Below, piece by piece: positions 13,072 through 63,621 of a stretch of 64,000 nt of DNA (its first letter is position 1; each line of letters opens with the position of its first letter). The stretch spans positions 681,317-745,316 of the forward strand of contig NZ_LMEI01000001.1 of the NCBI RefSeq assembly GCF_001426585.1, given 5' to 3'. The notes beneath the pieces were generated by a model. The model was given only the letters and a program-made list of their open reading frames with translations. It was not told the DNA's origin and ran no database searches. A program made the position numbers and the translations under genes. This DNA is from Streptomyces sp. Root431 (GTDB lineage: Bacteria > Actinomycetota > Actinomycetes > Streptomycetales > Streptomycetaceae).

Positions 13072-14616
13072 TCAGGAAGCCGTGACCTTGACCCCGTCGA
13101 TCGTCCAGTACCAGTTGTTGGCTCCGGTGTAGCGGAAGCGGAAGCTCACGCTGGACGTCCCGGCGGGGACGTTCACGGTGAGCGACTGGGGCTGGGAGAT
13201 CACGTCGGAGGTGTAGCTCTTGACGACGGTCGGGGTGCCGCCGTTGAAGCTCGCCAGGACCTGCGCGGACTGGCTGCCCTCCTGGCGGTAGAAGGTCGTG
13301 AAGTCGAGGGTGGCCCTGGTCGCGCCGGAGACGCTGTACGCGGGGGTGACCAGGGTCGAGTCGTACGTGCCCGAGAAGGACTTGTCGGCCCATTCGTCGG
13401 AGTCGGCGACGGCGAAGACGCCCCGGGCGCGGACGTTCAGCTCGCGGGACTGGTCGCGCTGGGAGCGGGACCAGAACTCGTCGGTGGCGAAGGACCAGCC
13501 GCGCCACTCGGTCATGCCGCCGGTGCCCATGGCGTTGTTGATGACGGACCAGCCGCTGGGCGCGGTGTGGGTGAAGCCGAGGATCCCGGCGGGGATGCCG
13601 GTCTCGTCGACGCGGCCGCTCAGCGAGCCGTAGAGGCTGTCGAAGGGGTCGGTCGAGCGCTGCTGGACCGGCTTGCCGTCGAGGCCCCAGGACGGGTCGG
13701 GGACGATGCCGAGCTGGTGGAAGACGGTGGCGGCGACGTCGACGAGCCGGGTGTCGATCGGGCGGGCGCCGACGGCGATGCCGGGGCCCTGCGCGAGGAC
13801 GAAGGTGCGGCGCTCCTCGATGGAGGAGCCGCCGTGGCCGCCGCCGTCGGTGTGGCCGTGGTCGGTGGCGACGATGACCGTCCAGCGCTCCGTGGCGTAC
13901 GAGGGGCGGGCCTTGATCGCGGTGAGCAGCCGGCCGAGGTAGGCGTCCTGGACGTCGATGGCGTCGAGGTACTTGCTGTGCGCCGCGCCGTAGTTGTGGC
14001 CGATCTCGTCGGTCTCGCCGAAGTAGACGAAGAGGACGTCCGGGTTCTGGTTGCGGAGGATGTCCTCCGTCGCCTCGGTGATCACGAGGTCGTTGACCAC
14101 GTAGTCGTTGTTGTAGACGAGCTTGGCGTCGGCGCCGGGGGTGACCGTGCCGTGGGTGTCCAGCTCGGGCCAGTCGACGGCGGCGAAGAGCGAGAGCTCG
14201 GGGCGGATCTGGTGCAAGCGGGCCAGGAATCCGGGGTACTTGGCGTAGTTCTTGCCGGTGAAGGTGTTGTCCTTCACGCCGTGCTTGTCGGGCCACACGC
14301 CGGTGGAGATCGTGGACCAGCCGGGGCCGGAGGAGGTCGCGGCCATCGGGTTGGCGTAGAGCAGCGAGCGGCCGAACGTGCCGTTCGTCATCAGGGACTT
14401 GAGGTTCGGGGCCTGGGCGGCGTCGATCCGGTCGTACCGCAGGCCGTCCATGCCGACGACGAGCACCTTGTCCTTGCTGGTGCCGTCGGGGAGCGCGGGC
14501 GCGGCGGTGGTGGCCGCGTGGGCGGCGGGGGCGGTGAGCGCGCCGGTGGCGGCGACGGCCGCGGTGGCGCCGGCGGCGGCGAGCACGGTGCGGCGGGAGA
14601 TGCCGGTGATCGGCAT
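13072..14616 (-). CDS. Tat-exported alkaline-phosphatase-superfamily phosphodiesterase
   Basis: 514 aa. A Tat signal peptide (SRRTVLAAAG, cleaved near AHA) leads into a type I phosphodiesterase / nucleotide pyrophosphatase fold. Metal sites are seen in VVGMDGLRYD, in the Thr nucleophile region SGPGWSTISTGVWPDKHGV, in FGETDEIGHNYG and in ATDHGHTDGGGHG. The last about 110 residues form a separate beta domain ending in VSFRFRYTGANNWYW. It probably cleaves phosphodiesters or nucleotides outside the cell. The start has GGAGG eight bases upstream. It lies just downstream of the aminophosphonate operon but behind a strong terminator, so it has its own promoter. Confidence 0.85.
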   Translation of the reverse strand: MPITGISRRTVLAAAGATAAVAATGALTAPAAHAATTAAPALPDGTSKDKVLVVGMDGLRYDRIDAAQAPNLKSLMTNGTFGRSLLYANPMAATSSGPGWSTISTGVWPDKHGVKDNTFTGKNYAKYPGFLARLHQIRPELSLFAAVDWPELDTHGTVTPGADAKLVYNNDYVVNDLVITEATEDILRNQNPDVLFVYFGETDEIGHNYGAAHSKYLDAIDVQDAYLGRLLTAIKARPSYATERWTVIVATDHGHTDGGGHGGSSIEERRTFVLAQGPGIAVGARPIDTRLVDVAATVFHQLGIVPDPSWGLDGKPVQQRSTDPFDSLYGSLSGRVDETGIPAGILGFTHTAPSGWSVINNAMGTGGMTEWRGWSFATDEFWSRSQRDQSRELNVRARGVFAVADSDEWADKSFSGTYDSTLVTPAYSVSGATRATLDFTTFYRQEGSQSAQVLASFNGGTPTVVKSYTSDVISQPQSLTVNVPAGTSSVSFRFRYTGANNWYWTIDGVKVTAS

Positions 14617-49919: not shown

Positions 49920-50561
49920 ATGGGCACGAGCGCGTACACGAGGGAACGGCTCGAAGCGGCGGCGCGGGGAGCGCGGACGCTGACGGAGGCGCTGGAGCGG
50001 CTGGGGGTGGATCCGAAGAGCTCGACGCGACGGTACGTGCGGGAGCGGATGCGGAAGCTGGGGGTGGACATCTCGCACTTCGAGCGGGAGGGGATTCGAT
50101 GGACGCGTGAGGTCCTGGCACAGGCCGTGGCTGCCTCGACGAACATGTGTGATGTGCTGCGGCGGCTCGGGGTGGAGGTCGTGGGCGGGCAGCACACGCA
50201 CATCAGCCGCCGCATCAAGGCGTACGGGATCGACACCTCGCACTTCCGCGCGCCGTCCCGGCGAGGCAAGCCCTGGCGCCCCCGGACACCCGAGGGCCTG
50301 CTCATCGAGCAGACCGGCCCGCAAACCCGACGCGTCCCGAGCGATCGCCTCGCCTGGGCGATGACGGAATCCGGGGTGCGTAAGCAGTGCGCGATGTGCG
50401 GCGCCGAGGCCGTATGGCGCGGCCGACCGCTCCCGTTGGAGATCGACCACGTCGATGGAGACTGGCGCAACAACCGCATCGAGAACCTGAGGTTCCTGTG
50501 CCCGAACTGCCACTCGGCGACCGATAACTACCGGGGGCGCGGCAGGAGGCGGAACTCTTGA
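49920..50561 (+). CDS. HNH endonuclease, first of a tandem paralogous pair
   Basis: 213 aa. The N-terminus has two helical SxxTTAxAL-like repeats (YTRERLEAAARGARTLTEALERLGVDP and WTREVLAQAVAASTNMCDVLRRLGV), possibly DNA-binding. The C-terminal HNH domain has CAMCGAEAVW, LEIDHVDGDWRNNRIENLRFLCPNCH, i.e. two CxxC zinc pairs and H-N-H. It overlaps its paralogue by four bases. The pair lies directly upstream of an atypical tRNA. It could be an autonomous homing-type or defence nuclease; the substrate is unknown. Confidence 0.82.
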   Translation: MGTSAYTRERLEAAARGARTLTEALERLGVDPKSSTRRYVRERMRKLGVDISHFEREGIRWTREVLAQAVAASTNMCDVLRRLGVEVVGGQHTHISRRIKAYGIDTSHFRAPSRRGKPWRPRTPEGLLIEQTGPQTRRVPSDRLAWAMTESGVRKQCAMCGAEAVWRGRPLPLEIDHVDGDWRNNRIENLRFLCPNCHSATDNYRGRGRRRNS

Positions 50562-51235
50562 CGAGCGGCCCGCGATACACCCGCGAGCGGTTGGCCGAAG
50601 CCGCCGCGCGGTGCTCGAACATGGACGAGGTCGTCGCCTTCTTCGACTCGCCGCCGTACGACAAACTCCGCCGCTACCTGCTGAAGCGCTTCGATCACTA
50701 CGGAATCGACGTCTCACACCTCATCCACCGGAAGCGACGAGGCGGGCAGCCTCCTCGCCCAGCACCGGGCGAGCTGAGGCAAGCTGTCGACCAGGCCACA
50801 TCCGTGGCCGGTGCCCTTCGCATCCTGGGTAGGCCCTGCACCGGGCAAATGCGCGCGCTGTTCCAGCAGTGGGCCGAGGAGGACAGCCTCAGTACGTCGC
50901 ACTTCCTGGGGCAGGCACACCAGCGGGGCAAGCAAGGGCCCACTCCGGTCAAGCGGCCCGAGGACATTCTTGTGCGCCACGACCGGGGGCGCCGGACCAG
51001 AACTCGCCTGCTCCGTCGAGCGCTCCGCGAGTCCGGTGCCCCCGAGAAGTGCGCCGACTGCGGCATCGGCACCGAGTGGTTCGGCAAGCCCATGACTCTG
51101 GAGGTCGACCACATCAACGGAGATTGGGCCGACGACCGGCGCGAGAATCTGCGGTTGCTCTGCCCCAACTGCCATGCGACCACGGATACCTGGTGCCGGG
51201 GAGGCAAGCGTTCCCGCGCTTCAGATGGGCAGTAA
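50558..51235 (+). CDS. HNH endonuclease, second of a tandem paralogous pair
   Basis: 225 aa. It has the same architecture as its upstream neighbour: YTRERLAEAAARCSNMDEVVAFF, a related second repeat GELRQAVDQATSVAGALRILG, then CADCGIGTEW and LEVDHINGDWADDRRENLRLLCPNCH. The TTG start at 50558 overlaps the first gene's stop (TTGA). Divergence between the two is large outside the HNH core, so the duplication is old. The stop is 14 bases before the tRNA. Confidence 0.8.
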   Translation: MTSGPRYTRERLAEAAARCSNMDEVVAFFDSPPYDKLRRYLLKRFDHYGIDVSHLIHRKRRGGQPPRPAPGELRQAVDQATSVAGALRILGRPCTGQMRALFQQWAEEDSLSTSHFLGQAHQRGKQGPTPVKRPEDILVRHDRGRRTRTRLLRRALRESGAPEKCADCGIGTEWFGKPMTLEVDHINGDWADDRRENLRLLCPNCHATTDTWCRGGKRSRASDGQ

Positions 51236-52022: not shown

Positions 52023-52403
52023 TTAGCCCGGAGTGCAGACCTTCGCCACTTCGCTCGCCCCGTCCGTGATCGGCTGGATGTCCGGCGTCGTGTCGCCGTT
52101 CTTCACCGCCGTGCGGACGGACTCGACGCCCTTGGTGAGGTCGTCGACGGCCTTCGCGAGGTCGGCGTTGTCCGTGGTGTCCTTGAGGTTGCCGAGCTCG
52201 GTGGAGATCGAGTTCAGGGACTCCTCGATCTGCGTCGGGTCGTTCGAGGCGTTGGAGACGGCCTGCTGGAGCTTGTCGACGGAGGTGGCTATCGCGTCGG
52301 CGGTCTTGACGCAGTCCATGGCGGTGTCGAGGGCTCCGCAGCCGCTCAGGACGGTGGTGAGCGCGGCGGCCGTGGCCACGGTGAGTGCGAGACGGCGCTT
52401 CAA
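52023..52403 (-). CDS. Small secreted lipoprotein
   Basis: About 126 aa. A signal peptide (LKRRLALTVATAAALTTVLSGC) ends in a lipobox. The mature part is helical (MDCVKTADAIATSVDKLQQAVSNASND, LAKAVDDLTKGVESVRTAVKNG) and ends in a second Cys (KVCTPG), which may pair with the first internal Cys. TTG 52403 is preferred because GGGGAGG lies seven bases upstream; ATG 52424 is the alternative. It lies between rph and rdgB in the same direction. Function unknown. Confidence 0.72.
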   Translation of the reverse strand: MKRRLALTVATAAALTTVLSGCGALDTAMDCVKTADAIATSVDKLQQAVSNASNDPTQIEESLNSISTELGNLKDTTDNADLAKAVDDLTKGVESVRTAVKNGDTTPDIQPITDGASEVAKVCTPG

Positions 52404-52489
52404 GGCGGGTCCTCCCCTGTACATGACAGTCGTGCGGGCGCACGGAGCTTATCCGTGCGCCCGTTGCCCGTCATGACGCAGCCAGGGGG

Positions 52490-53221
<732 letters not shown>

Positions 53222-53267
53222 GGGACGAGGGTAGCGGGACATGGCGGGCGGCCCGTTCCTCCGCGGT

Positions 53268-53356
53268 GAAGGGCCTGCTCGTTCATGACGAAGGGCCTGT
53301 TCGTCCATGACGAAGGGTCGGCTCGTTCATGACGAAGGGGTCGGCTCGTCCATGAC
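53268..53356. repeat. 22-bp tandem repeats between rph and nagF
   Basis: Four copies of GAAGGGCCTGTTCGTCCATGAC-like units (22, 22, 22 and 23 bases; variation at positions 7-15), plus a partial fifth that merges into the nagF terminator hairpin. They lie in the leader region of rph on the minus strand. Confidence 0.85.
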
Positions 53357-53357
53357 G

Positions 53358-53389
53358 AAGGGCCCGTTCCCCTGTCGGAACGGGCCCTT
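53358..53389. terminator. Terminator after nagF
   Basis: A perfect 13-bp stem, AAGGGCCCGTTCC / GGAACGGGCCCTT, with loop CCTGTC. It lies 20 bases past the nagF stop on the minus strand. Confidence 0.85.
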
Positions 53390-53408
53390 GTCGATGCGAG
53401 TCAATCGC

Positions 53409-53642
53409 TCACATCATGTCTTCGATCTCCGCGGCGATGGGGTCCGCGTCGGTGCCGATGACGACCTGGATGGCGGTGCCCATCTTCACGACGCCGTGGG
53501 CGCCGGCGGCCTTCAGCGCGGCCTCGTCGACGAGGCTGGGGTCGTTGACCTCGGTGCGCAGCCGGGTGATGCAGCCCTCGACCTCTTCGATGTTGTCGAG
53601 GCCGCCGAGCCCGGCGACGATCTTCTCAGCCTTGCTGGCCAT
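53409..53642 (-). CDS. nagF: N-acetylglucosamine PTS EIIB component
   Basis: 77 aa. The single-domain EIIB has the phosphorylated Cys in VEGCITRLRTEV, and HGVVKMGTAIQVVIG follows. It passes phosphate from HPr/EIIA to the sugar carried by the EIIC proteins encoded divergently. ATG 53642 has GGAG upstream. A dre site at 53815 sits between it and nagE1, so DasR control of both is likely. Separate EIIB and EIIC genes match the Streptomyces GlcNAc system. Confidence 0.92.
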   Translation of the reverse strand: MASKAEKIVAGLGGLDNIEEVEGCITRLRTEVNDPSLVDEAALKAAGAHGVVKMGTAIQVVIGTDADPIAAEIEDMM

Positions 53643-53814
53643 GTGTTTCTCCCTGTCCGTTCCGTTCGCGCGAGCGCGAATCTCGGCGCACCTGTGGTCC
53701 GCTTTGTCACGGTAACCCACGGTTGGCCCAACTTCGCGAGCGAGTGCCGCCGTTCTGCCGAATGATGACGATCACCGGCGGCCTGTCCTCAGCGGGCTCC
53801 CGGAGCCTATCGCA

Positions 53815-53830
53815 ACTGGTCTACACCAGT
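53815..53830. promoter_or_regulatory. DasR responsive element (dre) between nagF and nagE1
   Basis: ACTGGTCTACACCAGT matches the DasR consensus ACTGGTCTAGACCACT at 14 of 16 positions. It lies 48 bases before nagE1 and 173 bases before nagF. Confidence 0.87.
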
Positions 53831-53877
53831 GTGCAACGAGAAGCGGACCCGGCTTGTTCCGGGCAGGGAGGACGCCG

Positions 53878-55176
53878 ATGAGTACGGACAGCGCCGCGGC
53901 GCGGCCGCAGAAGTCCCTGTGGGGCGGGCTCTTCCAGGGGCTTCAGAAGATGGGGCGCAGCCTTCAGCTCCCCATCGCCGTGCTGCCGGCCGCGGGCATC
54001 ATCAACCGGCTGGGGCAGCCGGACGTCTTCGGTGCGGAGGGGCTCGGCTGGGACAAGGTCGCCGCGGTGATGGCGGGCGCGGGCGGCGCCCTGCTCGACG
54101 GCAACCTCGGCCTGCCGCTGCTGTTCTGCGTCGGTGTCGCCATCGGCATGGCGAAGAAGTCGGACGGATCGACCGCGCTCGCGGCCGTCGTCGGCTTCCT
54201 CGTCTACTACACGGTCCTGCGTCAGTTCCCGAAGGACTGCCCGCCGGGTACGAGGGACATCGGCGGTGGCTGCCTGGCGCCCGATGAGGCCTTCGGCGCC
54301 TACACGTACCAGAACCCCGGTGTCTTCGGTGGCATCGTCATGGGTCTGCTGACCGCGTACCTGTGGCAGCGGTACCACCGGACGAAGCTGGTCGACTGGC
54401 TGGGCTTCTTCAACGGCCGCCGTCTCGTCCCGATCATCATGACGTTCGTGGCGATCGTGTTCGCCTCGCTCTGCCTGTGGGTCTGGCCGCCGATCGGTGA
54501 CGCCCTGGAGAACTTCAGCGACTGGCTGGTCGGCCTCGGCTCCTGGGGTTCCGGGATCTTCGGTGTGGCGAACCGTGCGCTGCTCGTCATCGGCCTGCAC
54601 CAGTTCCTGAACGTGCCCATCTGGTTCCAGTTCGGCACGTACGAGAAGCCGGACGGCACGGTGGTCCATGGCGACATCCCGATGTTCCTGGCGGGCGACC
54701 CGAACGCCGGCCAGTTCCTGACGGGTTTCTTCCCGATCATGATGTTCGCCCTGCCGGCGGCTGCGCTCGCGATCACCCATTGCGCGAAGCCGCATCGCCG
54801 CAAGGAGATCGGCGGCATGATGCTCTCGGTGGCGCTGACCTCGTTCGTCACCGGTATCACCGAGCCGCTGGAGTACTCGTTCCTCTTCATCGCGCCGGTG
54901 CTGTACGCGATCCACGCGGTGCTCACCGGTGTCTCGATGGCGGTGACATGGGCGTTCGGCGTGAAGGACGGCTTCAGCTTCTCGGCCGGTCTGATCGACT
55001 ACGTGATCAACTGGGGTCTCGCGACGAAACCGTGGCTGATCATTCCGATCGGCCTCGCCTTCGCGGTCGTGTACTACGCGATCTTCCGGTTCGCGATCAC
55101 CAAGTTCAACCTGCAGACGCCGGGCCGTGAGCCGGACGAGGTCGGTGACGAGATGGAGCGGGAGAACGTCAAGTAG
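53878..55176 (+). CDS. nagE1: N-acetylglucosamine PTS EIIC permease, first copy
   Basis: A 432-aa EIIC of the glucose/GlcNAc family with about ten helices. The family elements are LFQGLQKMGRSLQLPIAVLPAAGI, GLPLLFCVGVAIGMAKKSDG, LHQFLNVPIWFQFG and FVTGITEPLEYSFLFIAPVLYAIHA. It brings GlcNAc in with EIIB-dependent phosphorylation. ATG 53878 has GGGAGG upstream. The paralogue that follows is clearly homologous along its length, indicating a tandem duplication. Confidence 0.92.
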   Translation: MSTDSAAARPQKSLWGGLFQGLQKMGRSLQLPIAVLPAAGIINRLGQPDVFGAEGLGWDKVAAVMAGAGGALLDGNLGLPLLFCVGVAIGMAKKSDGSTALAAVVGFLVYYTVLRQFPKDCPPGTRDIGGGCLAPDEAFGAYTYQNPGVFGGIVMGLLTAYLWQRYHRTKLVDWLGFFNGRRLVPIIMTFVAIVFASLCLWVWPPIGDALENFSDWLVGLGSWGSGIFGVANRALLVIGLHQFLNVPIWFQFGTYEKPDGTVVHGDIPMFLAGDPNAGQFLTGFFPIMMFALPAAALAITHCAKPHRRKEIGGMMLSVALTSFVTGITEPLEYSFLFIAPVLYAIHAVLTGVSMAVTWAFGVKDGFSFSAGLIDYVINWGLATKPWLIIPIGLAFAVVYYAIFRFAITKFNLQTPGREPDEVGDEMERENVK

Positions 55177-55240
55177 TGCTGCGGTCACCCTGGAGAGCCT
55201 GACCGATTCGGGGCTTTTGACCCCCTCGTAAGCCCCACAG

Positions 55241-55273
55241 AAGGCCCCTGGACCTGACAGTCCGGGGGCCTTA
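55241..55273. terminator. Terminator between the two EIIC genes
   Basis: AAGGCCCCTGGAC / GTCCGGGGGCCTT (one wobble) with loop CTGACA. It separates nagE1 transcription from nagE2, which has its own operators downstream. Confidence 0.8.
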
Positions 55274-55344
55274 TGTCGTGCATTTCCGGCTATGGCTGAG
55301 CACACAAAATTCGCAGGTTCCTTATCTAAGTCTCACGTGCTAAA

Positions 55345-55389
55345 ACTGGTCTACACCACTGATTGGTGTAGACCACGCGGTCCAGACCA
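55345..55389. promoter_or_regulatory. Tandem dre sites upstream of nagE2
   Basis: Three DasR-type sites in a row: ACTGGTCTACACCACT (55345-55360), ATTGGTGTAGACCACG (55362-55377) and a weaker CGGTCCAGACCA (55378-55389, 10 of 12). Centre spacing is 17 and 14 bases. Confidence 0.85.
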
Positions 55390-55461
55390 CCGCGTTCCAC
55401 GAGATGTCGCCTCCCCCCGTGTTCACTCCCTGGCGGCGCCTTGCCTTACTGGAGGAAGTTG

Positions 55462-56727
55462 ATGAGTACGGCCACCGCCCAGGCCGCCGCTCCCGCGAAG
55501 AAGCGCGGATCCGGCCTGTTCCAGGGCCTGCAGAAGGTCGGTCGCAGCCTGCAGCTGCCGATCGCCGTTCTGCCGGCCGCGGGTATCTTGCTCCGTCTCG
55601 GCCAGCCCGACGTCTTCGGCGCCGAAGGCCTCGGCTGGGGCAAGGTCGCCACGGTCTTCGCCTCCGCCGGAGATGCGGTCTTCGCCAACATGCCGCTGCT
55701 GTTCTGCGTCGGCATCGCGATCGGCTTCGCCAAGAAGGCCGACGGCTCCACCGCCCTCGCCGCCCTCGTCGGCTTCCTCGTCTACTCGAGCGTCCTCAAG
55801 GCGTTCCCGGTCAGCGAGGCCGTCGTCAACACGACCGCGAACAAGGGTGTCGACGTCGCCGCGACGTACAACGACCCCAAGGTCTTCGGCGGCATCATCA
55901 TGGGCCTGCTCGGCGCCGTCGTCTGGCAGCGGTTCCACCGCACCAAGCTGGTCGACTGGCTCGGCTTCTTCAACGGCCGCCGTCTCGTCCCGATCCTCAT
56001 GGCCTTCGTCGGCACCATCATGGGTGTTCTCTTCGGTCTCCTCTGGGAGCCCGTCGGCAACCTCATCACCGACTTCGGCAACTGGATGACCAGCCTCGGC
56101 GCCCTCGGCTCCGGCATCTTCGGCGCCATCAACCGTGGTCTGCTCCCGGTCGGCATGCACCAGTTCGTGAACACCGTCGCCTGGCAGGAGATCGGCACCT
56201 TCACCGACTCCACCGGCGCCGTCTGGCACGGCGACCTGCCCCGCTTCTTCCACGGTGACCCGTCCGCCGGTCAGTTCATGTCCGGGTTCTTCCCGATCAT
56301 GATGTTCGCCCTGCCGGCCGTCGCCCTGGCGATCACCCACGCCGCCCGCCCCGAGCGCCGCAAGGTCGTCGGCGGCATGATGTTCTCGCTCGCCCTGACC
56401 TCGTTCGTCACGGGCATCACCGAGCCCATCGAGTTCGCGTTCATGTTCCTCGCGCCGCTGCTGTACGTGATCCACGCGGTGCTCACCGCCGCCTCGATGG
56501 TCATCACCTCGGCCCTCGGCGTGCACCACGGCTTCACCTTCTCCGCCGGTGCGCTGGACTACTTCCTGAACTGGACGTACGCCTCCAAGCCCTGGCTGAT
56601 CATCCCGATCGGCCTGGTCTTCGCGGCGATCTACTACGTGGTCTTCCGCTTCGCGATCACCAAGTTCAACCTCGCCACCCCGGGCCGCGAGCCCGAGGAG
56701 GAGCTCGAGGACCTCACCAAGGCGTGA
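55462..56727 (+). CDS. nagE2: N-acetylglucosamine PTS EIIC permease, second copy
   Basis: 421 aa, strongly similar to the first EIIC: LFQGLQKVGRSLQLPIAVLPAAGI, MPLLFCVGIAIGFAKKADGSTALAALVGFLVYSSVL, MHQFVNTVAWQEIG, FVTGITEPIEFAFMFLAPLLYVIHA. ATG 55462 has GGAGG six bases upstream. In S. coelicolor the equivalent gene is the main GlcNAc transporter, and two-plus dre sites in front fit strong DasR control. Confidence 0.92.
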   Translation: MSTATAQAAAPAKKRGSGLFQGLQKVGRSLQLPIAVLPAAGILLRLGQPDVFGAEGLGWGKVATVFASAGDAVFANMPLLFCVGIAIGFAKKADGSTALAALVGFLVYSSVLKAFPVSEAVVNTTANKGVDVAATYNDPKVFGGIIMGLLGAVVWQRFHRTKLVDWLGFFNGRRLVPILMAFVGTIMGVLFGLLWEPVGNLITDFGNWMTSLGALGSGIFGAINRGLLPVGMHQFVNTVAWQEIGTFTDSTGAVWHGDLPRFFHGDPSAGQFMSGFFPIMMFALPAVALAITHAARPERRKVVGGMMFSLALTSFVTGITEPIEFAFMFLAPLLYVIHAVLTAASMVITSALGVHHGFTFSAGALDYFLNWTYASKPWLIIPIGLVFAAIYYVVFRFAITKFNLATPGREPEEELEDLTKA

Positions 56728-56747
56728 GCCCTCTCGCCTGACGAAAC

Positions 56748-56795
56748 GTCGGCCTTCAGGACCTGATCGTGGTCCTGGAGGCCGACTTTCTTTTC
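56748..56795 (+). terminator. Intrinsic terminator after nagE2
   Basis: A 16-bp stem, GTCGGCCTTCAGGACC / GGTCCTGGAGGCCGAC (one wobble), with loop TGATCGT, followed by TTTCTTTTC. It is a canonical rho-independent terminator that isolates the glycocin cluster from the PTS operon. Confidence 0.9.
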
Positions 56796-56976
56796 GGGGT
56801 GCATGCCGGATTCACGGCCCGGAAATTGACACCGGAGCAACCTGACAAACTCACGGACAAGATCACGTACATTCCTTCCTCCCTCCATAGGATTAGACCA
56901 ATCGAGCCGGGGGAACCGCTCGGCGCACCATCCCGATGGGCAGGACCAGCCCGTCACGACCAGGAAAGAGAAGCAC

Positions 56977-57171
56977 ATGAGCCTCTCCACGCTGCGCGAG
57001 ATGAACTTCACGACCATGTCCGACAGCGAGACCGACGCCGTTTCCGGCGGCCGCCTCTCCAAGGCCCAGTGCGCCGCGATCTGGGCCAACGCCCAGGCCA
57101 ACATGATGGGTTACGGCTGTGGCGGCAGCTACACGGACTACATGGGCATCTACAACCGTGAGTGCCGGTAG
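56977..57171 (+). CDS. Glycocin (sublancin-like) precursor peptide
   Basis: 64 aa. The 25-residue leader (MSLSTLREMNFTTMSDSETD then AVSGG) ends in a double-glycine C39 cleavage site. The predicted 39-residue core begins RLSKAQCAAIWANAQAN and ends YNRECR. It parallels sublancin 168 (GLGKAQCAALW..., ...GCGGG..., ...NYRQFCR): Cys7 and Cys38 match the outer disulfide, and Cys23 in YGCGGSY matches the S-glucosylated Cys22. Cys14 and Cys29 of sublancin are missing. It would be a secreted S-glycosylated bacteriocin. It is first in a cluster with exporter and glycosyltransferase. The upstream gap (56728-56976) holds a terminator and AT-richer promoter-like DNA around TAGGAT (56889). Confidence 0.87.
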   Translation: MSLSTLREMNFTTMSDSETDAVSGGRLSKAQCAAIWANAQANMMGYGCGGSYTDYMGIYNRECR

Positions 57172-57212
57172 CAGATAACGCTGCCAGGAATCACCTGACA
57201 GCAGTCTAAGAG

Positions 57213-57262
57213 CGGCGGCGCCTCCACTCCGGGAAGGAATCCCGGAATCCGAGGCGCCGCCG
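57213..57262 (+). terminator. Strong hairpin between glycocin precursor and exporter genes
   Basis: A 12-bp outer stem, CGGCGGCGCCTC / GAGGCGCCGCCG, contains an inner stem CTCCGGGA / TCCCGGAA. No U-tract follows, so partial termination or 3'-end protection is more likely than full termination. This would give excess precursor mRNA over the processing genes. Confidence 0.7.
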
Positions 57263-57285
57263 ATCCGCATCCCAGGGGGCGCAAG

Positions 57286-59442
57286 ATGAAATGGCAGGCC
57301 TATCACACGCATCAGGAAGGTGATACGGACTGCGGCCCAGCCTGCGTGCGCACTGTCCTGCGGAGACACGGAGTGCACGTGGACTCCGCGATTCTTCGGG
57401 AATCCGTGGGGCTCGGCGAAGGCGGTGCGAGCCTTTTCCGGCTCCAGCAGGTGCTCGACGACTACGGCGTCACCTCCCAGGCCTTCCGCCTGACCGTGAA
57501 CGAGCTGCACCAGGCTGTCACGCTGGCAGGACCTGCCATCGCCCTGACGTCGGACGAGGGACTCTCTCACTTCGTCGTCGTCCAAGAAGCCCTGCCCAAC
57601 GGCGACTTCGTCATCAGCGACCCATGGTTCTACCGGCCGAGGACCGTGACCGCCGACGAGCTGTCGCAGACCTTCTCCGGTGAGACCCTCGTCTCCGAGA
57701 CCCCCTCGACCAACGTCAGCCGATGGGGGCGCTTCAGGCATTCCTGGAAGCAGAGCGTCTTCGTGAACGAGGTCCGCGAGAACCGGCGGACAATCACCGG
57801 GGTCATCGCTCTGACGCTCCTCGTGGCCGCGCTTTCGATCTCCAGCAGCATATATCTCCAGGTGTCCGTCGACGGATTCCTGCAGTCGGACAGCATCAGC
57901 GCCCTCACGCTGACCTCCCTTGCGTTCGTGGGAATGGTCCTGGCCGCCGGAGCTCTCCAATACATACGCGGGCTCATCATCGTCAGATTCGGGCAGCGCG
58001 TACAGAAGAACCTGTCCGAGCGCTACGTGGAGAAACTCCTCCGTCTACCGGTCCGCTTCTACTCGGGCCGTAGAACCGGAGACCTGGCAAGTCGGCTCGA
58101 TGACGTCCAGGGAATACAGACGCTTCTGACTTCCACCACGATCGGCGTGTCGGTGGACATGGCCATCGTGCTCATCGTCGGCAGCTACCTCGCTTGGTCG
58201 AGCCTGCCCCTCTTCGGCATCCTCATGAGTTCCGCATTCATCACGGTCCTAGCCTCGTGGAGTCTCTATCGCGGAATTCGGGAGACGTCCGAGGAAGCAT
58301 TGCAGCGTGACGCCACGCTCAAATCCGAACTGATCAACGTCCTCAATCACCACGAGGTCGTGATCTCTCATGGAAAGCGTGATTTCGCGGCCCGGCGGAT
58401 CTCCGACGCTTTGTCACGGCGTATCGAATCCGAGACGAGACTCGGGCGCCTCGACAACCTCTCCGCCACGATCCGGCTGGTGACCCACGGCTGCTTCGCC
58501 GTCACCGTGACCTGGATCGGCCTCCTCCAGGCCCAGAGCGGCCGGATCTCGCTGGGGCAGGTCCTCAGCTTCATCTCGCTGTCCGGGTACTTCCTCACCT
58601 CACTGGTGAACATCTCCACCCTGCAGACCACGCTCCAGCGGAGCTCCGCCGCGATCGGCCGCTATCGGGACATCATGACCCAGCGTGAGCCCGTCATCCT
58701 CCCGTCTCCCACGGGCGCCCACGCACGTACGGGCGGCGCGCCCGCACAGCCGGACCTCCCGCACGGAACGCCCTCCGCCCTCTCGGCGCGAGGCCTGACG
58801 TTCTCGTACCCTGGCGCTGCGCGCCGCGTCATCGAAGACGTCTCCGTGACCGTCCCCGCCGGGCGCTCGGTGCATCTGGCAGGGGACAACGCCTCGGGAA
58901 AGAGCACTCTCCTGAAGCTCCTGGCAGGCCTGCACACGGCGGACGACGGGACGGTCTTCCTCGGTGGTGTGCCGCTCGAAAGCCTCGATCCCGACACCGT
59001 CCATCGCAAGGTCCTCTATCTGCCCGAGATCCCGATGATCGTCAACGCGACCGTCCGGGAGAACCTGACGCTGGGAGCGCACTACTCCCAGGACGAAGTC
59101 GATCAGGCTTGCGCCTTGGCCCATGCGACATCCGTCGTCGACTCCCTGGACAAGGGCTACGACGAGGTCCTGCGGGAGGACGGGACCCGCCTGTCCCGAG
59201 GCCAGCTGCAGAAGCTCGCGCTGGCACGCGCGGTGTTGATCCGCCCCGACGTCTTCCTGTTCGACGAAAGCTTCAGCGGCATCGACCAGGACGCCTTCGT
59301 CCGGATCTGGGACTCCCTGGCCACGACGGGAGCCACTCGCGTCCTGGTGGCTCACCGAGAGGTCGACGACCTGCGGTGCGACCTGACCATGCGCCTGGAC
59401 AGCGCCCCCGACCGTGCCGCCCTGACGAAGGAACCCGCATGA
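57286..59442 (+). CDS. Peptidase-containing ABC transporter (PCAT) for glycocin leader removal and export
   Basis: 718 aa. The C39 peptidase domain has catalytic Cys16 in GDTDCGPAC, His95 in LSHFVVV and Asp112 in FVISDPW. The six-helix ABC membrane domain runs about 165-450. The ATPase has Walker A DNASGKST (about 535), signature LSRGQLQ (about 637), Walker B VFLFDES and H-loop VAHRE. The signature LSRGQ departs from LSGGQ. It cleaves after the double Gly and exports the peptide, like SunT. It overlaps the glycosyltransferase gene by four bases (ATGA), so they are co-translated. Confidence 0.93.
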   Translation: MKWQAYHTHQEGDTDCGPACVRTVLRRHGVHVDSAILRESVGLGEGGASLFRLQQVLDDYGVTSQAFRLTVNELHQAVTLAGPAIALTSDEGLSHFVVVQEALPNGDFVISDPWFYRPRTVTADELSQTFSGETLVSETPSTNVSRWGRFRHSWKQSVFVNEVRENRRTITGVIALTLLVAALSISSSIYLQVSVDGFLQSDSISALTLTSLAFVGMVLAAGALQYIRGLIIVRFGQRVQKNLSERYVEKLLRLPVRFYSGRRTGDLASRLDDVQGIQTLLTSTTIGVSVDMAIVLIVGSYLAWSSLPLFGILMSSAFITVLASWSLYRGIRETSEEALQRDATLKSELINVLNHHEVVISHGKRDFAARRISDALSRRIESETRLGRLDNLSATIRLVTHGCFAVTVTWIGLLQAQSGRISLGQVLSFISLSGYFLTSLVNISTLQTTLQRSSAAIGRYRDIMTQREPVILPSPTGAHARTGGAPAQPDLPHGTPSALSARGLTFSYPGAARRVIEDVSVTVPAGRSVHLAGDNASGKSTLLKLLAGLHTADDGTVFLGGVPLESLDPDTVHRKVLYLPEIPMIVNATVRENLTLGAHYSQDEVDQACALAHATSVVDSLDKGYDEVLREDGTRLSRGQLQKLALARAVLIRPDVFLFDESFSGIDQDAFVRIWDSLATTGATRVLVAHREVDDLRCDLTMRLDSAPDRAALTKEPA

Positions 59443-60752
59443 AGTTCGCCGATGTCCTCGATCAGGCCTGGGCCGAGGATTCCGGCCCGGCGACCGCGCT
59501 GGGCCGGGATCTGCGGCTCGTCCGCGCGGCCGCCCCGGAACTGCTCGCGCTGGACGTCCCGGCCGGCTCGTACGGCGAGCTCGCCGGCTCCTATCGGCCG
59601 GACCGGGCAGGCGCCGTCACCGCCGTCGTACTGACACACGACGAGGAGCAGGTGATCGGTGCGTGTCTGCGCGCCCTGACCGATGACTGCGACCGCATGC
59701 TCCTCGTCGACGCCGAGTCCCAGGACTCGACCTTGGGCACCGCGAGGTCCGCCGTCGCCCATGTGGAACACGTCACCCGTGCGTGGACCGACGACTTCGC
59801 GGCACAGCGCAACGCCGCGTTCGGGCACGCCCGCGCCGGCGGCTGGCTCGCCCATGTGGACGCGGACGAAACCCTGTCGGCGGAGAGCAGGGGGCGGCTG
59901 CGGGCAGTCCTGTCGGCTCTGGACCACGTCCTGCCCGGTGCCGACCTGGTGGTGTCCCCTCGCATTCTCGACACGAGTCGGGAATGCCATACGAACACCC
60001 GGCGGGTCGTCCGCTCCGACTCGGCCCTGCGGTTCAAGGGGCGTCTCCACGAGCGGCTGTACGACGCACACGGCGCCCAGCCTCCGTCCGTCGAGGTGGA
60101 CGTGGTCTTCCACCACACCGGCTACGAGCCGGAGGTGATCACGCGCAGGGGCAAACGGGAGAAGTACGCACGGCTCGTCGAGGTGTGTCTGGCGGAGGAG
60201 CCGTCGAATCCGAAGTGGCACTTCTACGCGGTGCGCGACGGCCTCGTGGGTCGTCAGCCCGGTCCCGACGAAGCCCTCGCACTGTTCCGGAGGCTCCGGG
60301 AAGCACACGCCCTGTACGACCGGGTTCCTCTGTCCGACTACGAGGCGGAGCGCTGGACCGACAGTCTGGTCCTCCAGTGCGAGCTGGCCCTGGGGTTCGG
60401 CGGCGGCCGTGAGATCGGGGAGCTCACGCCTCTCCTGCACGCGCGGGGACGCCTCCTCGAAGCCTCGTACTACCGGACGTTCGCCGAGTTCAGTGCCCTG
60501 CTCAACCGCTCCTCGCGACTGCTGGACGAGCTCTCCGAGGGAAGCCGGCACCAGCTGCCGGACCATCGGCAGCTGGTGGGCCGCAGCTACGACCTCCAGG
60601 CCCTGCTGGCACTGACCTGCGGCCGCTACGACGAGGTGCCCGTGTTGTTGGGCGAAGCCCGGTCCCGCCAGGCCGGATCGCTCACGACGGCCACCGTGGA
60701 ATCTCTCGCGGACCGGCTGCCGAGCTGGCGGGACCTTCCTCAGATCTCGTAG
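59439..60752 (+). CDS. SunS-like GT2 glycosyltransferase (peptide S-glycosyltransferase)
   Basis: 437 aa. A GT-A fold begins AVVLTHDEEQVIGACLRAL and DCDRMLLVDAESQDST, then DDFAAQRNAAFGHARAGGWLAHVDADETLS, whose VDADE is the metal-binding DXD. RLHERLYD and VVFHHTGYEP follow as in SunS-type enzymes. The C-terminal 200 residues are helical and TPR-like, as in SunS. It should transfer a UDP-sugar to the core Cys before export. There is no second glycosyltransferase nearby. It converges on an MBL hydrolase with a 13-base overlap. Confidence 0.88.
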   Translation: MKFADVLDQAWAEDSGPATALGRDLRLVRAAAPELLALDVPAGSYGELAGSYRPDRAGAVTAVVLTHDEEQVIGACLRALTDDCDRMLLVDAESQDSTLGTARSAVAHVEHVTRAWTDDFAAQRNAAFGHARAGGWLAHVDADETLSAESRGRLRAVLSALDHVLPGADLVVSPRILDTSRECHTNTRRVVRSDSALRFKGRLHERLYDAHGAQPPSVEVDVVFHHTGYEPEVITRRGKREKYARLVEVCLAEEPSNPKWHFYAVRDGLVGRQPGPDEALALFRRLREAHALYDRVPLSDYEAERWTDSLVLQCELALGFGGGREIGELTPLLHARGRLLEASYYRTFAEFSALLNRSSRLLDELSEGSRHQLPDHRQLVGRSYDLQALLALTCGRYDEVPVLLGEARSRQAGSLTTATVESLADRLPSWRDLPQIS

Positions 60753-61492
60753 ACCGCGCCGGGCCTCGCCAGCTCCGACGGGCCCGTGTACACCGCGCGC
60801 GCGTCCGCCAGGTTCTGCTCGCCGTCCGTCCACGGCGGGATGTGGGTGAGGACCAGCCGGCCCACATCGGCCCGGGTCGCCTGCGCCCCGGCCTCGCGGC
60901 CGTTGAGGTGGAGCGCCGGGATGTCCTCCTTGCCGTGCGTGAAGGAGGCCTCGCAGAGGAAGAGGTCGGTGCCCTCGGCGAGCTCGTGCAGCGCGTCGCA
61001 GACCCCGGTGTCGCCGGAGTACGTGAGCGAACGGCCGCCGTGCTCGACGCGGATGCCGTACGCCTCGACCGGGTGGCAGACCTTCTCCGTGCGGACCGTG
61101 AAGGGGCCGATCTCGAAGGAGGCCGACTTCAGCGTGTGGAAGTCGAAGACCTCGCCCATCGCGGTGGGCGAGGGGGTGTCCGCGTACGCCGTGGTCAGCC
61201 GCTGCTCGGCGCCCTCCGGCGCGTAGACGGGGATCGCGTCGCAGCGTCCGCCCTCGTGCCGGTAGTAGCGGGCGACGAAGTAGCCGCACATGTCGATGCA
61301 GTGGTCCGCGTGCAGATGACTGAGGAAGATCGCGTCGAGGTCGTACAGACCGATGTGTCGTTGCAGCTCGCCGAGGGCGCCGTTGCCCATGTCGAGGAGC
61401 AACCGGAAGCCGTCGGCCTCGACGAGGTAGCTCGAACAGGCCGAATCCGCGGACGGGAACGACCCGGAGCAACCGACGACGGTGAGCTTCAT
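60740..61492 (-). CDS. MBL-fold metallo-hydrolase
   Basis: A 250-aa metallo-beta-lactamase-fold protein. The metal signature is SHLHADHCIDM, with GCSGSFPSADSACSSYLVEADGFRLLLDMG at the start, and SGDTG and LCEASF later, close to the RNase Z/PhnP-like subgroup. Such genes are usual in streptomycete cores near the cysM/rph region. The substrate is unknown (a tRNA 3' end or a cyclic phosphate is possible). ATG 61492. It is not part of the glycocin cluster by orientation. Confidence 0.88.
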   Translation of the reverse strand: MKLTVVGCSGSFPSADSACSSYLVEADGFRLLLDMGNGALGELQRHIGLYDLDAIFLSHLHADHCIDMCGYFVARYYRHEGGRCDAIPVYAPEGAEQRLTTAYADTPSPTAMGEVFDFHTLKSASFEIGPFTVRTEKVCHPVEAYGIRVEHGGRSLTYSGDTGVCDALHELAEGTDLFLCEASFTHGKEDIPALHLNGREAGAQATRADVGRLVLTHIPPWTDGEQNLADARAVYTGPSELARPGAVYEI

Positions 61493-61695
61493 GGAGCGTG
61501 AACCTCCGTGGACGGGTGCGGAAAGCGCGCTGAGGGAGGGGGAGGCTGTGCGGTCTGTCGAGCGTAAGGCGCACCCGGGCCTGTCGCTCCTTTGCGGCGG
61601 CCCGTTGTGGGCGAACTCACGGGCTCTGTCACCGGTTCGGATGGATGGCGGGGCGTCACGGCGGAGTGAGCCACGCGCCGGTACCGTCTTGAGGT

Positions 61696-62190
61696 ATGGA
61701 CACGTCATGGTGGCCCGCGCTGGTCGCGGTCGTGGTGATCGCGCTGGTCGTGGTGGTCGCCGGTGGGCAGAAGCGTTCCGCGCGGAAGCCCGTCGGCCGG
61801 CGGCCCCCGGGGCGGAGCCGCGCGCCGGAGCGGACCCGCCCGCCGGCCCGGCCGGCCGGGCCGCGGAAGGCGCCGTCGCGGTTGCCGCGGGCGGGCGAGA
61901 TCTGGTGGGCGGACGTGCCCTTCGAGGACGGTCCCGGTTCGAAGGACCGGCCGTGTCTGGTGCTCTCGCTGCGGGGCGACAGTGCGCTCGTCGCCAAGAT
62001 CACCAGCAAGTACCACGACGAACGGCCGGGCGTGATCGCGCTGCCGCCGGGGGCGGTGGGCGACGCTCAGGGGCGGCCGAGCTTCCTGGAGACGGACGAG
62101 CTGCGGGACGTTCCGGTGGCGGACTTCCGCCGGAAAGTGGGAACGGCGGACCCGGTCGTATGGGACCAGGTCCGCCATCTGGCGCGCTGA
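61696..62190 (+). CDS. Membrane-anchored PemK/MazF-like protein
   Basis: 164 aa. An N-terminal helix (WWPALVAVVVIALVVVVAGG) is followed by a basic Pro/Arg linker, then a PemK/MazF fold: RAGEIWWADVPFEDGPGSKDRPCLVLSL, VAKITSKYHDERPGVIALPPG, FLETDELRDVPVADFRRKVG. Classic MazF toxins are soluble ribonucleases with a small antitoxin gene upstream. No antitoxin gene is visible, so this could be a housekeeping or orphan member. It may cut RNA at the membrane (inference). Confidence 0.8.
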   Translation: MDTSWWPALVAVVVIALVVVVAGGQKRSARKPVGRRPPGRSRAPERTRPPARPAGPRKAPSRLPRAGEIWWADVPFEDGPGSKDRPCLVLSLRGDSALVAKITSKYHDERPGVIALPPGAVGDAQGRPSFLETDELRDVPVADFRRKVGTADPVVWDQVRHLAR

Positions 62191-62203
62191 GGGCGCCGTG
62201 AGG

Positions 62204-62285
62204 GCTCCCGCGTCGAGGGGGCCGTAGCGGCGCTCCCGCGTCGAGGGGGCCGTGCGGCGCTCCCGCGCTGAGGGAGCCTTGCGGG
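62204..62285. repeat. 28-bp tandem repeats between convergent mazF-like gene and cysM
   Basis: Three units of GCTCCCGCGTCGAGGGGGCC type, 28, 27 and about 27 bases, the last diverged (GCTCCCGCGCTGAGGGAGCC). No open reading frame or clear hairpin explains them. Confidence 0.8.
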
Positions 62286-62286
62286 C

Positions 62287-63621
<1,335 letters not shown>

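Follow-up and report, generated by a model that had tools for sequence, protein, structure and literature searches.

A three-gene glycocin-type cluster at the N-acetylglucosamine permease locus of Streptomyces sp. Root431 and its relatives, with candidate DasR sites

Why does a gene cluster for a small, probably glycosylated peptide stand directly behind the N-acetylglucosamine (GlcNAc) permease genes of a Streptomyces chromosome? The question arises from a 64,000-nucleotide stretch of Streptomyces sp. Root431 (contig NZ_LMEI01000001.1, positions 681,317 to 745,316; hereafter the window), in which three genes encode a short precursor peptide, an ATP-binding cassette (ABC) exporter and a glycosyltransferase (GT). 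An initial annotation had read these genes as a cluster for a glycocin, a glycosylated bacteriocin; the neighbouring genes of the GlcNAc phosphotransferase system (PTS) went unmentioned there. We consider it somewhat probable that the product is a one-disulfide glycocin carrying an N-acetylhexosamine (HexNAc), aimed at the GlcNAc permease of rival bacteria and, in several relatives, switched by the regulator DasR.

The presence of a glycocin-type cluster with a SunS-type GT was confirmed, and the reading built upon it is partly supported. The three open reading frames (ORFs) lie on the plus strand at the positions described, with a 4-base overlap between the exporter and GT genes (59439-59442; Table 1). 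The three domains expected of a C39-peptidase ABC exporter (Peptidase_C39, ABC_membrane and ABC_tran) were all found above their Pfam cut-offs. The GT also proved to be of the SunS type: in fold comparison it has a GT-A domain and a helical C-terminal part like those of 7msn and 7msk, and a 13-row GT profile matched ThuS (7msk, E 1.3e-59) and SunS (7msn, E 5e-56). Against TIGR04195 it scored 133 bits (E 1.1e-38), below the SunS equivalog cut-off of 350, and this model also weakly matched 10 of 14 control genomes. As in known glycocin clusters, the SunS-type GT stands beside a small precursor gene. The best Pfam family of the precursor was PF19151, Sublancin, at 22.4 bits against a gathering cut-off of 26.9; TIGR04196 gave 16.7 against a cut-off of 40 bits, and sublancin itself (PDB 2mij) matched only at E 0.23. 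This similarity is weak by itself, and it is therefore the genomic context that carries the glycocin assignment.

That context recurs in related genomes, as the initial annotation had required of its reading: the GT is accompanied by an exporter gene in 18 of 19 clusters and by a precursor in 17. At E <=1e-40 the GT profile found 12 of 392 genomes in a draw from the genus and 10 of 394 in a draw from the family; the draws overlap, each holds the window's genome, and together they give 17 distinct genomes with the GT, the window's included. NRRL B-1347 (L006) and S. niger (L007) bring the clusters to 19, a number that may miss some, as only the four best first-look candidates were scored per genome. 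Most precursors escaped a strict motif filter and were found by looser filters and tblastn. In a phylum draw at E 1e-30, 7 of 396 genomes matched, namely two clusters already counted and five weak matches outside the family; the latter (E 1e-31 to 1e-36), with neither exporter nor precursor matched in their 2.5-3.7 kb loci, were taken to be other GT2 enzymes. Among the 18 ABC genes, that of G924 is truncated and that of G036 is broken into two frames. In G924 (L111 9235-11989) the GT lies beside a shortened exporter frame of 476 aa, a precursor was not found in this locus, and a frame that looks transposase-like by eye lies at 13192-14505. The tblastn exporter match of G036 changes frame near the gene start (L064 12068-12192), through a frameshift or a sequencing error. 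In G970 (L112 9241-10674) a lone GT, apparently a decayed glycocin cluster, occupies the same chromosomal site as the window's cluster, and neither exporter nor precursor was found in that locus.

We examined the peptide scaffold by aligning 18 precursors, 17 from these loci and one (P0002, Streptomyces sp. NPDC058955) from a protein search. The outer cysteine pair is invariant in all 18, and the loop position between them is Cys in 16 and Ser in two. Every precursor has two or three cysteines in total, and a second cysteine pair is absent from all 18. A passage of PMC6405829 states that all glycocins characterised by 2019 have five cysteines, and that the GCGG cysteine is glucosylated in SunA, ThuA and PalA. 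In the predicted model of the window's precursor (pLDDT 66, from which we use the helix-loop-helix outline alone), a leader helix is followed by a helix at 29-43, a loop and a helix at 52-62. The two Ser precursors (S. niger and G122, type VI) align column for column with the HGC precursors of type V (G064 and G907), with a total outer-Cys spacing of 31 in both types. The simplest reading of the alignment is a peptide with one disulfide (Cys32-Cys63) and one loop residue predicted to carry the sugar, which would be S-linked in most members and O-linked in two.

The term sublancin-like, as applied to this precursor, holds for its motifs: KAQCAAxW, GCGG and YNRECR are present in the core as described. 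It fails for the five-cysteine, two-disulfide architecture, the core having three cysteines only. A glucosylated peptide with two disulfides is accordingly extremely unlikely, even though KAQCAAxW, GCGG and YNRxCR-like ends are common to sublancin: three cysteines exclude two disulfides, and none of the 18 precursors has more than three. The single hexose proposed for the core has also lost ground, since a published actinobacterial enzyme bears the name of a HexNAc-transferase, which makes HexNAc at least as likely. The calculated monoisotopic mass of the core is 4320.88 with one disulfide, 4482.94 with an added hexose and 4523.96 with an added HexNAc.

The window's cluster stands in the nag locus, behind genes for EIIB and EIIC components of the GlcNAc-PTS. 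In a comparison with the cluster-free relative G004 (L114), blocks aligned at 52023-56730 (92.6% identity) and 60738-63500 (91.1%, the query ending at 63500); in G004 the two blocks that flank the cluster position are separated by 68 bases that include a stem-loop. To the right lies a metallo-beta-lactamase-fold (MBL) gene, whose 3' end overlaps that of the GT gene. Fourteen of the 19 clusters occupy the nag locus between rph and the MBL gene, in three arrangements. Those of types I, III and IV and the solo GT of G970 lie on the same strand behind nagE2 (G000, the window's genome, with G305, G268, G208, G315, G192, G080, G311, G1035 and G970), type V lies on the opposite strand behind nagE2 (G064, G907), and type VI lies on the opposite strand between nagE1 and nagE2 (S. 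niger, G122). The other five (L006, G036, G012, G914, G924) are outside the nag locus, and the nag loci of G012 and G036, examined themselves, hold no cluster.

Does the nag locus simply accept any insertion? We examined 51 nag loci without a glycocin, in 49 of which the nagE2-MBL gap could be measured (two end early on the MBL side). The gap was below 700 bp in 48 of the 49, and the nagE1-nagE2 gap was at most 643 bp in 43 measured loci; an insertion hotspot was rejected. Three gaps were inspected. That of G034 (L141 1845-3888, nagE2-MBL) holds genes that by eye resemble an APC permease and a universal stress protein, the 674-bp nagE2-MBL gap of G019 (L126 9113-9700) holds a small frame that by eye resembles an acetyltransferase, and the nagE1-nagE2 gap of G031 showed no gene on inspection. 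Several other cluster-free loci have gaps of 360-460 bp.

The position could nevertheless be an accident of transfer, the cluster having arrived once or a few times and the flanking homology (the 3' ends of nagE1 and nagE2, the MBL gene) having moved it between strains and paralogues without a functional tie. Trees were computed for all 19 GTs and for 18 exporters (13 linked to the nag locus, five unlinked), their root not being known. Linked and unlinked clusters split in the exporter tree (support 100/99), and the same five unlinked clusters grouped in the GT tree (100/98), indicating one or a few origins of the linkage. At the nag locus, GTs of other types share only 40-47% identity with the window's GT, as against 75-95% in the flanking rph, MBL and cysM genes, a contrast consistent with exchange by recombination; the difference between types VI and V looks like the outcome of a move from the rear of one EIIC gene to that of the other. 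To account for the three arrangements among linked clusters, orientation or position must have changed at least twice, each time within the locus. Such a history is compatible both with selection for linkage and with recombination through the nagE paralogues. We nevertheless judge a purely accidental position unlikely, given the rarity of other genes in the gap (G034 and G019) and the distribution of candidate regulatory sites, which are enriched in linked clusters only, next to the precursor and, in the window, inside the insert itself.

These sites were sought with a DasR matrix built from 11 published S. coelicolor DasR sites, with which the 150 nt upstream of each precursor were scored. 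In S. coelicolor nagE1 and nagE2 are DasR targets, and the nagE1 site is printed in a passage of PMC4398421. In a calibration on 200-nt upstream regions, scores of at least 10 were obtained for 61 of 65 nagE1, 56 of 57 nagE2 and 59 of 65 nagF genes (176/187). Six control genes reached this level in 1 of 242 regions, and the background did so in 30 of 4913 windows of 150 nt; the precursor row of that run gave 5 of 12, from a tblastn set that lacked several precursors and included unlinked ones. With start codons set by hand, 9 of 13 linked precursors had an upstream site scoring about 10 or more (each with p up to 0.007), at a distance of 53-92 nt from the start codon; none of the four unlinked ones had such a site. 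The combined Fisher p was 0.97 for the unlinked precursors and 4e-13 for the linked ones. The latter value overstates independence, as the three promoters of type I hardly differ from one another, nor do the two of type V; when each such set is reduced to a single row, 6 of 10 linked precursors keep a site. The stronger sites, scoring 14.8-17.4, are those of G064, G315, G122, G907 and G1035, and the window's nagE1 and nagE2 sites score 21.1-21.7. The sites of G315, G080 and G1035 coincide in part with the -10 box of a TTGATC-N18-TA(A/T)GGT promoter, and the site of a type III strain reads GGTCTAGACC. The window's own dre-like (DasR-responsive element) site scores 10.9 (p 0.005 against shuffles), a value reached in 18 of 4913 background windows, and DasR control of the window's own cluster is a suggestion from this motif.

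A second regulator may possibly bind the type III promoters (L113, L065, L063), where a palindrome resembling TGATCATGATCA precedes the -35 box, some 100 nt ahead of the precursor start.

Together these features suggest how the system may work. The GT would modify Cys48 in the loop between two helices, replaced by Ser in two relatives that keep the outer cysteines; the exporter would cut the leader after SGG and secrete the 39-residue core with its Cys32-Cys63 pair. DasR, to judge from the sites, would repress the precursor promoter until glucosamine-6-phosphate derived from imported GlcNAc released it. If glycocin F and sublancin are a guide, the sugar might then dock into the EIIC of a rival and jam or misuse it. 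A passage of PMC5890784 gives a GlcNAc-specific PTS transporter as the presumed target of glycocin F, engaged through the GlcNAc residues of the peptide, and one of PMC6405829 states that a sugar PTS affects the activity of both sublancin and glycocin F. A more specific version would make the peptide a weapon of nutrient denial, in which a one-disulfide glycocin bearing GlcNAc on Cys or Ser, encoded at the nag locus and switched by DasR, jams the GlcNAc-PTS of rivals just when GlcNAc appears; this we regard as possible rather than probable.

Several observations weigh against a peptide aimed at the permease and switched by DasR. A cluster can do without the permease locus, since all four of type II and that of G924 are found elsewhere, and because the five unlinked clusters group apart in both trees, linkage represents a few events and not 14. 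The window's dre-like site agrees with the consensus at 11 of 16 positions, and in an unweighted count 47 of 300 shuffles did as well. The matrix found no site in four of the 13 linked precursors (S. niger, G208, G192, G311), and that same unweighted count, made over 250 nt with cruder shuffles, singled out only four of 13 (G064, G907, G122, G1035). Finally, three residues separate the window's nagE2 protein from its counterpart in cluster-free G004, and with so similar a permease in a strain lacking the cluster, a target-based reading leaves self-protection unexplained.

Two further explanations address this last point. The ORF list showed no recognisable immunity or oxidoreductase gene in the three-gene cluster and nothing BdbA/BdbB-like or SunI-like, no family search having been aimed at the latter. 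The adjacent nagE2 might therefore itself provide immunity as a private, insensitive copy of the target, being the neighbour in 14 of 19 clusters with no other candidate at hand. In a 57-row tree of EIIC proteins (without the second one of G192), the nagE2 proteins of type III (all four present) and type V (2/2) each formed a clade of cluster-bearing strains only, which fits joint inheritance. These clades may be just related strains, both main nagE2 classes mix cluster-bearing with cluster-free strains, and the three-residue difference from G004 speaks against a private copy, making this explanation very unlikely. The divergent nagE2 (53-59% identity) of some cluster-bearing strains was discarded as an immunity clue, the same class occurring in cluster-free strains. 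Alternatively, the peptide might serve as a signal or regulator: by binding the GlcNAc permease of its own producer it would tune the sensing of GlcNAc, and thereby development and antibiotic production. The missing immunity gene, the near-identical nagE2 in producer and cluster-free relative and the DasR-type sites in relatives would all suit such a role, but the patchy presence of the cluster (as in the genus draw) and the diversity of its cores look bacteriocin-like, and we consider a signalling function distinctly unlikely.

The peptide proposed here, a glycocin directed at rivals' GlcNAc permease, has both counterparts and differences among known systems. With sublancin 168 (SunA-SunT-SunS) and thurandacin (ThuS) it shares the SunS/ThuS-type GT, the C39 exporter and a core of KAQC-helix, GCGG-loop and helix; it differs in that its GT and precursor fall below the curated cut-offs and, from sublancin, in its one disulfide instead of two and its chromosomal site beside the GlcNAc-PTS. 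Glycocin F and ASM1 of Lactiplantibacillus likely share the HexNAc sugar, and the GlcNAc-PTS is the likely target of glycocin F according to a passage of PMC5890784. Glycocin F is, however, diglycosylated with two nested disulfides, compared with the one sugar and one disulfide predicted here, and has putative immunity genes gccH and gccI (passage of PMC8620827). Thermoglycocin and orniglycocin (PMC12457901) exchange Ser and Cys at the glycosylated loop residue as types V and VI do here, but they come from Firmicutes and have three disulfides, unlike the one-disulfide Streptomyces type.

The claim that an actinobacterial S-glycosylated bacteriocin would be new no longer stands. To judge from their titles, Singh & Rao 2021 and Sharma, Ahlawat & Rao 2021 (Glycobiology cwab089) already deal with such systems, the latter with an actinobacterial S/O-HexNAc-transferase, and an actinobacterial glycocin-type cluster is for this reason not new. 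In the titles, abstracts and passages searched (these two papers by title), nag linkage, DasR control and a family of one-disulfide C/S scaffolds were not found for glycocins, and a search for glycocin with DasR returned a single paper, whose abstract opens on Bacillus antibiotics. One actinobacterial enzyme of this kind is reportedly SvGT of Streptomyces venezuelae ATCC 15439, with its precursor two genes away, and that system is probably of our type I.

A plasmid source was rejected: blastn against plasmids gave 15 records, none covering more than 9% of the query and almost all of them pieces of PTS or MBL paralogues. An HNH endonuclease-type gene lies at 50558-51235 (+) of the window (PF01844 E 3.8e-5; PADLOC homing-endonuclease model E 9.5e-13).

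Table 1 Features of the glycocin-type cluster and its surroundings (window coordinates)
Feature	Position	Strand	Basis
Glycocin precursor gene, 64 aa	56977..57171	+	ORF list; PF19151 E 1.4e-4, below cut-off
Leader, 25 aa ending SGG	56977-57051	+	predicted cleavage site
Core, 39 aa	57052-57168	+	predicted cleavage site
Outer Cys 1, residue 32, predicted disulfide partner	57070..57072	+	Cys in 18/18 precursors
Loop Cys, residue 48 (GCGG), predicted glycosylation site	57118..57120	+	Cys 16/18, Ser 2/18; between two predicted helices (low confidence)
Outer Cys 2, residue 63, predicted disulfide partner	57163..57165	+	Cys in 18/18 precursors
C39-peptidase ABC exporter gene, 718 aa, SunT-like role	57286..59442	+	PF03412 E 1.1e-22, PF00664 E 1.8e-34, PF00005 E 1.3e-22
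GT2-family peptide glycosyltransferase gene, 437 aa, SunS/ThuS-type	59439..60752	+	profiles, fold comparison
Degenerate DasR-type (dre-like) site upstream of precursor	56887..56902	+	score 10.9
Insert relative to cluster-free G004	56731..60737	+	block comparison with G004, ~4.0 kb
PTS EIIC gene, nagE2-type (ptsB)	55441..56727	+	PF02378 E 2.6e-67
dre before nagE2-type gene	55345..55360	+	DasR matrix
PTS EIIC gene, nagE1-type (ptsA)	53854..55176	+	PF02378 E 8.1e-64
dre between nagF- and nagE1-type genes	53815..53830	+	DasR matrix; identical to S. coelicolor nagE1 site
PTS EIIB gene, nagF-type	53409..53642	-	PF00367 E 1.7e-14
MBL gene, conserved right flank	60740..61492	-	PF12706

To our knowledge, resistance genetics in Firmicutes has so far been the route to glycocin targets. 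In the present case a target is suggested by genome position and regulatory sites on their own: a peptide likely to carry a GlcNAc-type sugar is encoded at the GlcNAc permease genes and, in relatives, probably controlled together with them. We know of no smaller glycocin scaffold than one that exchanges Cys and Ser at a single loop position between two constant outer cysteines, and it may be useful for testing the contributions of the sugar, its linkage and a second disulfide, just as tractable Streptomyces hosts may be for testing PTS permeases as receptors. If the peptide does deny GlcNAc to rivals, producer and target gene would share one regulon, and GlcNAc from chitin or cell-wall debris would be the trigger.

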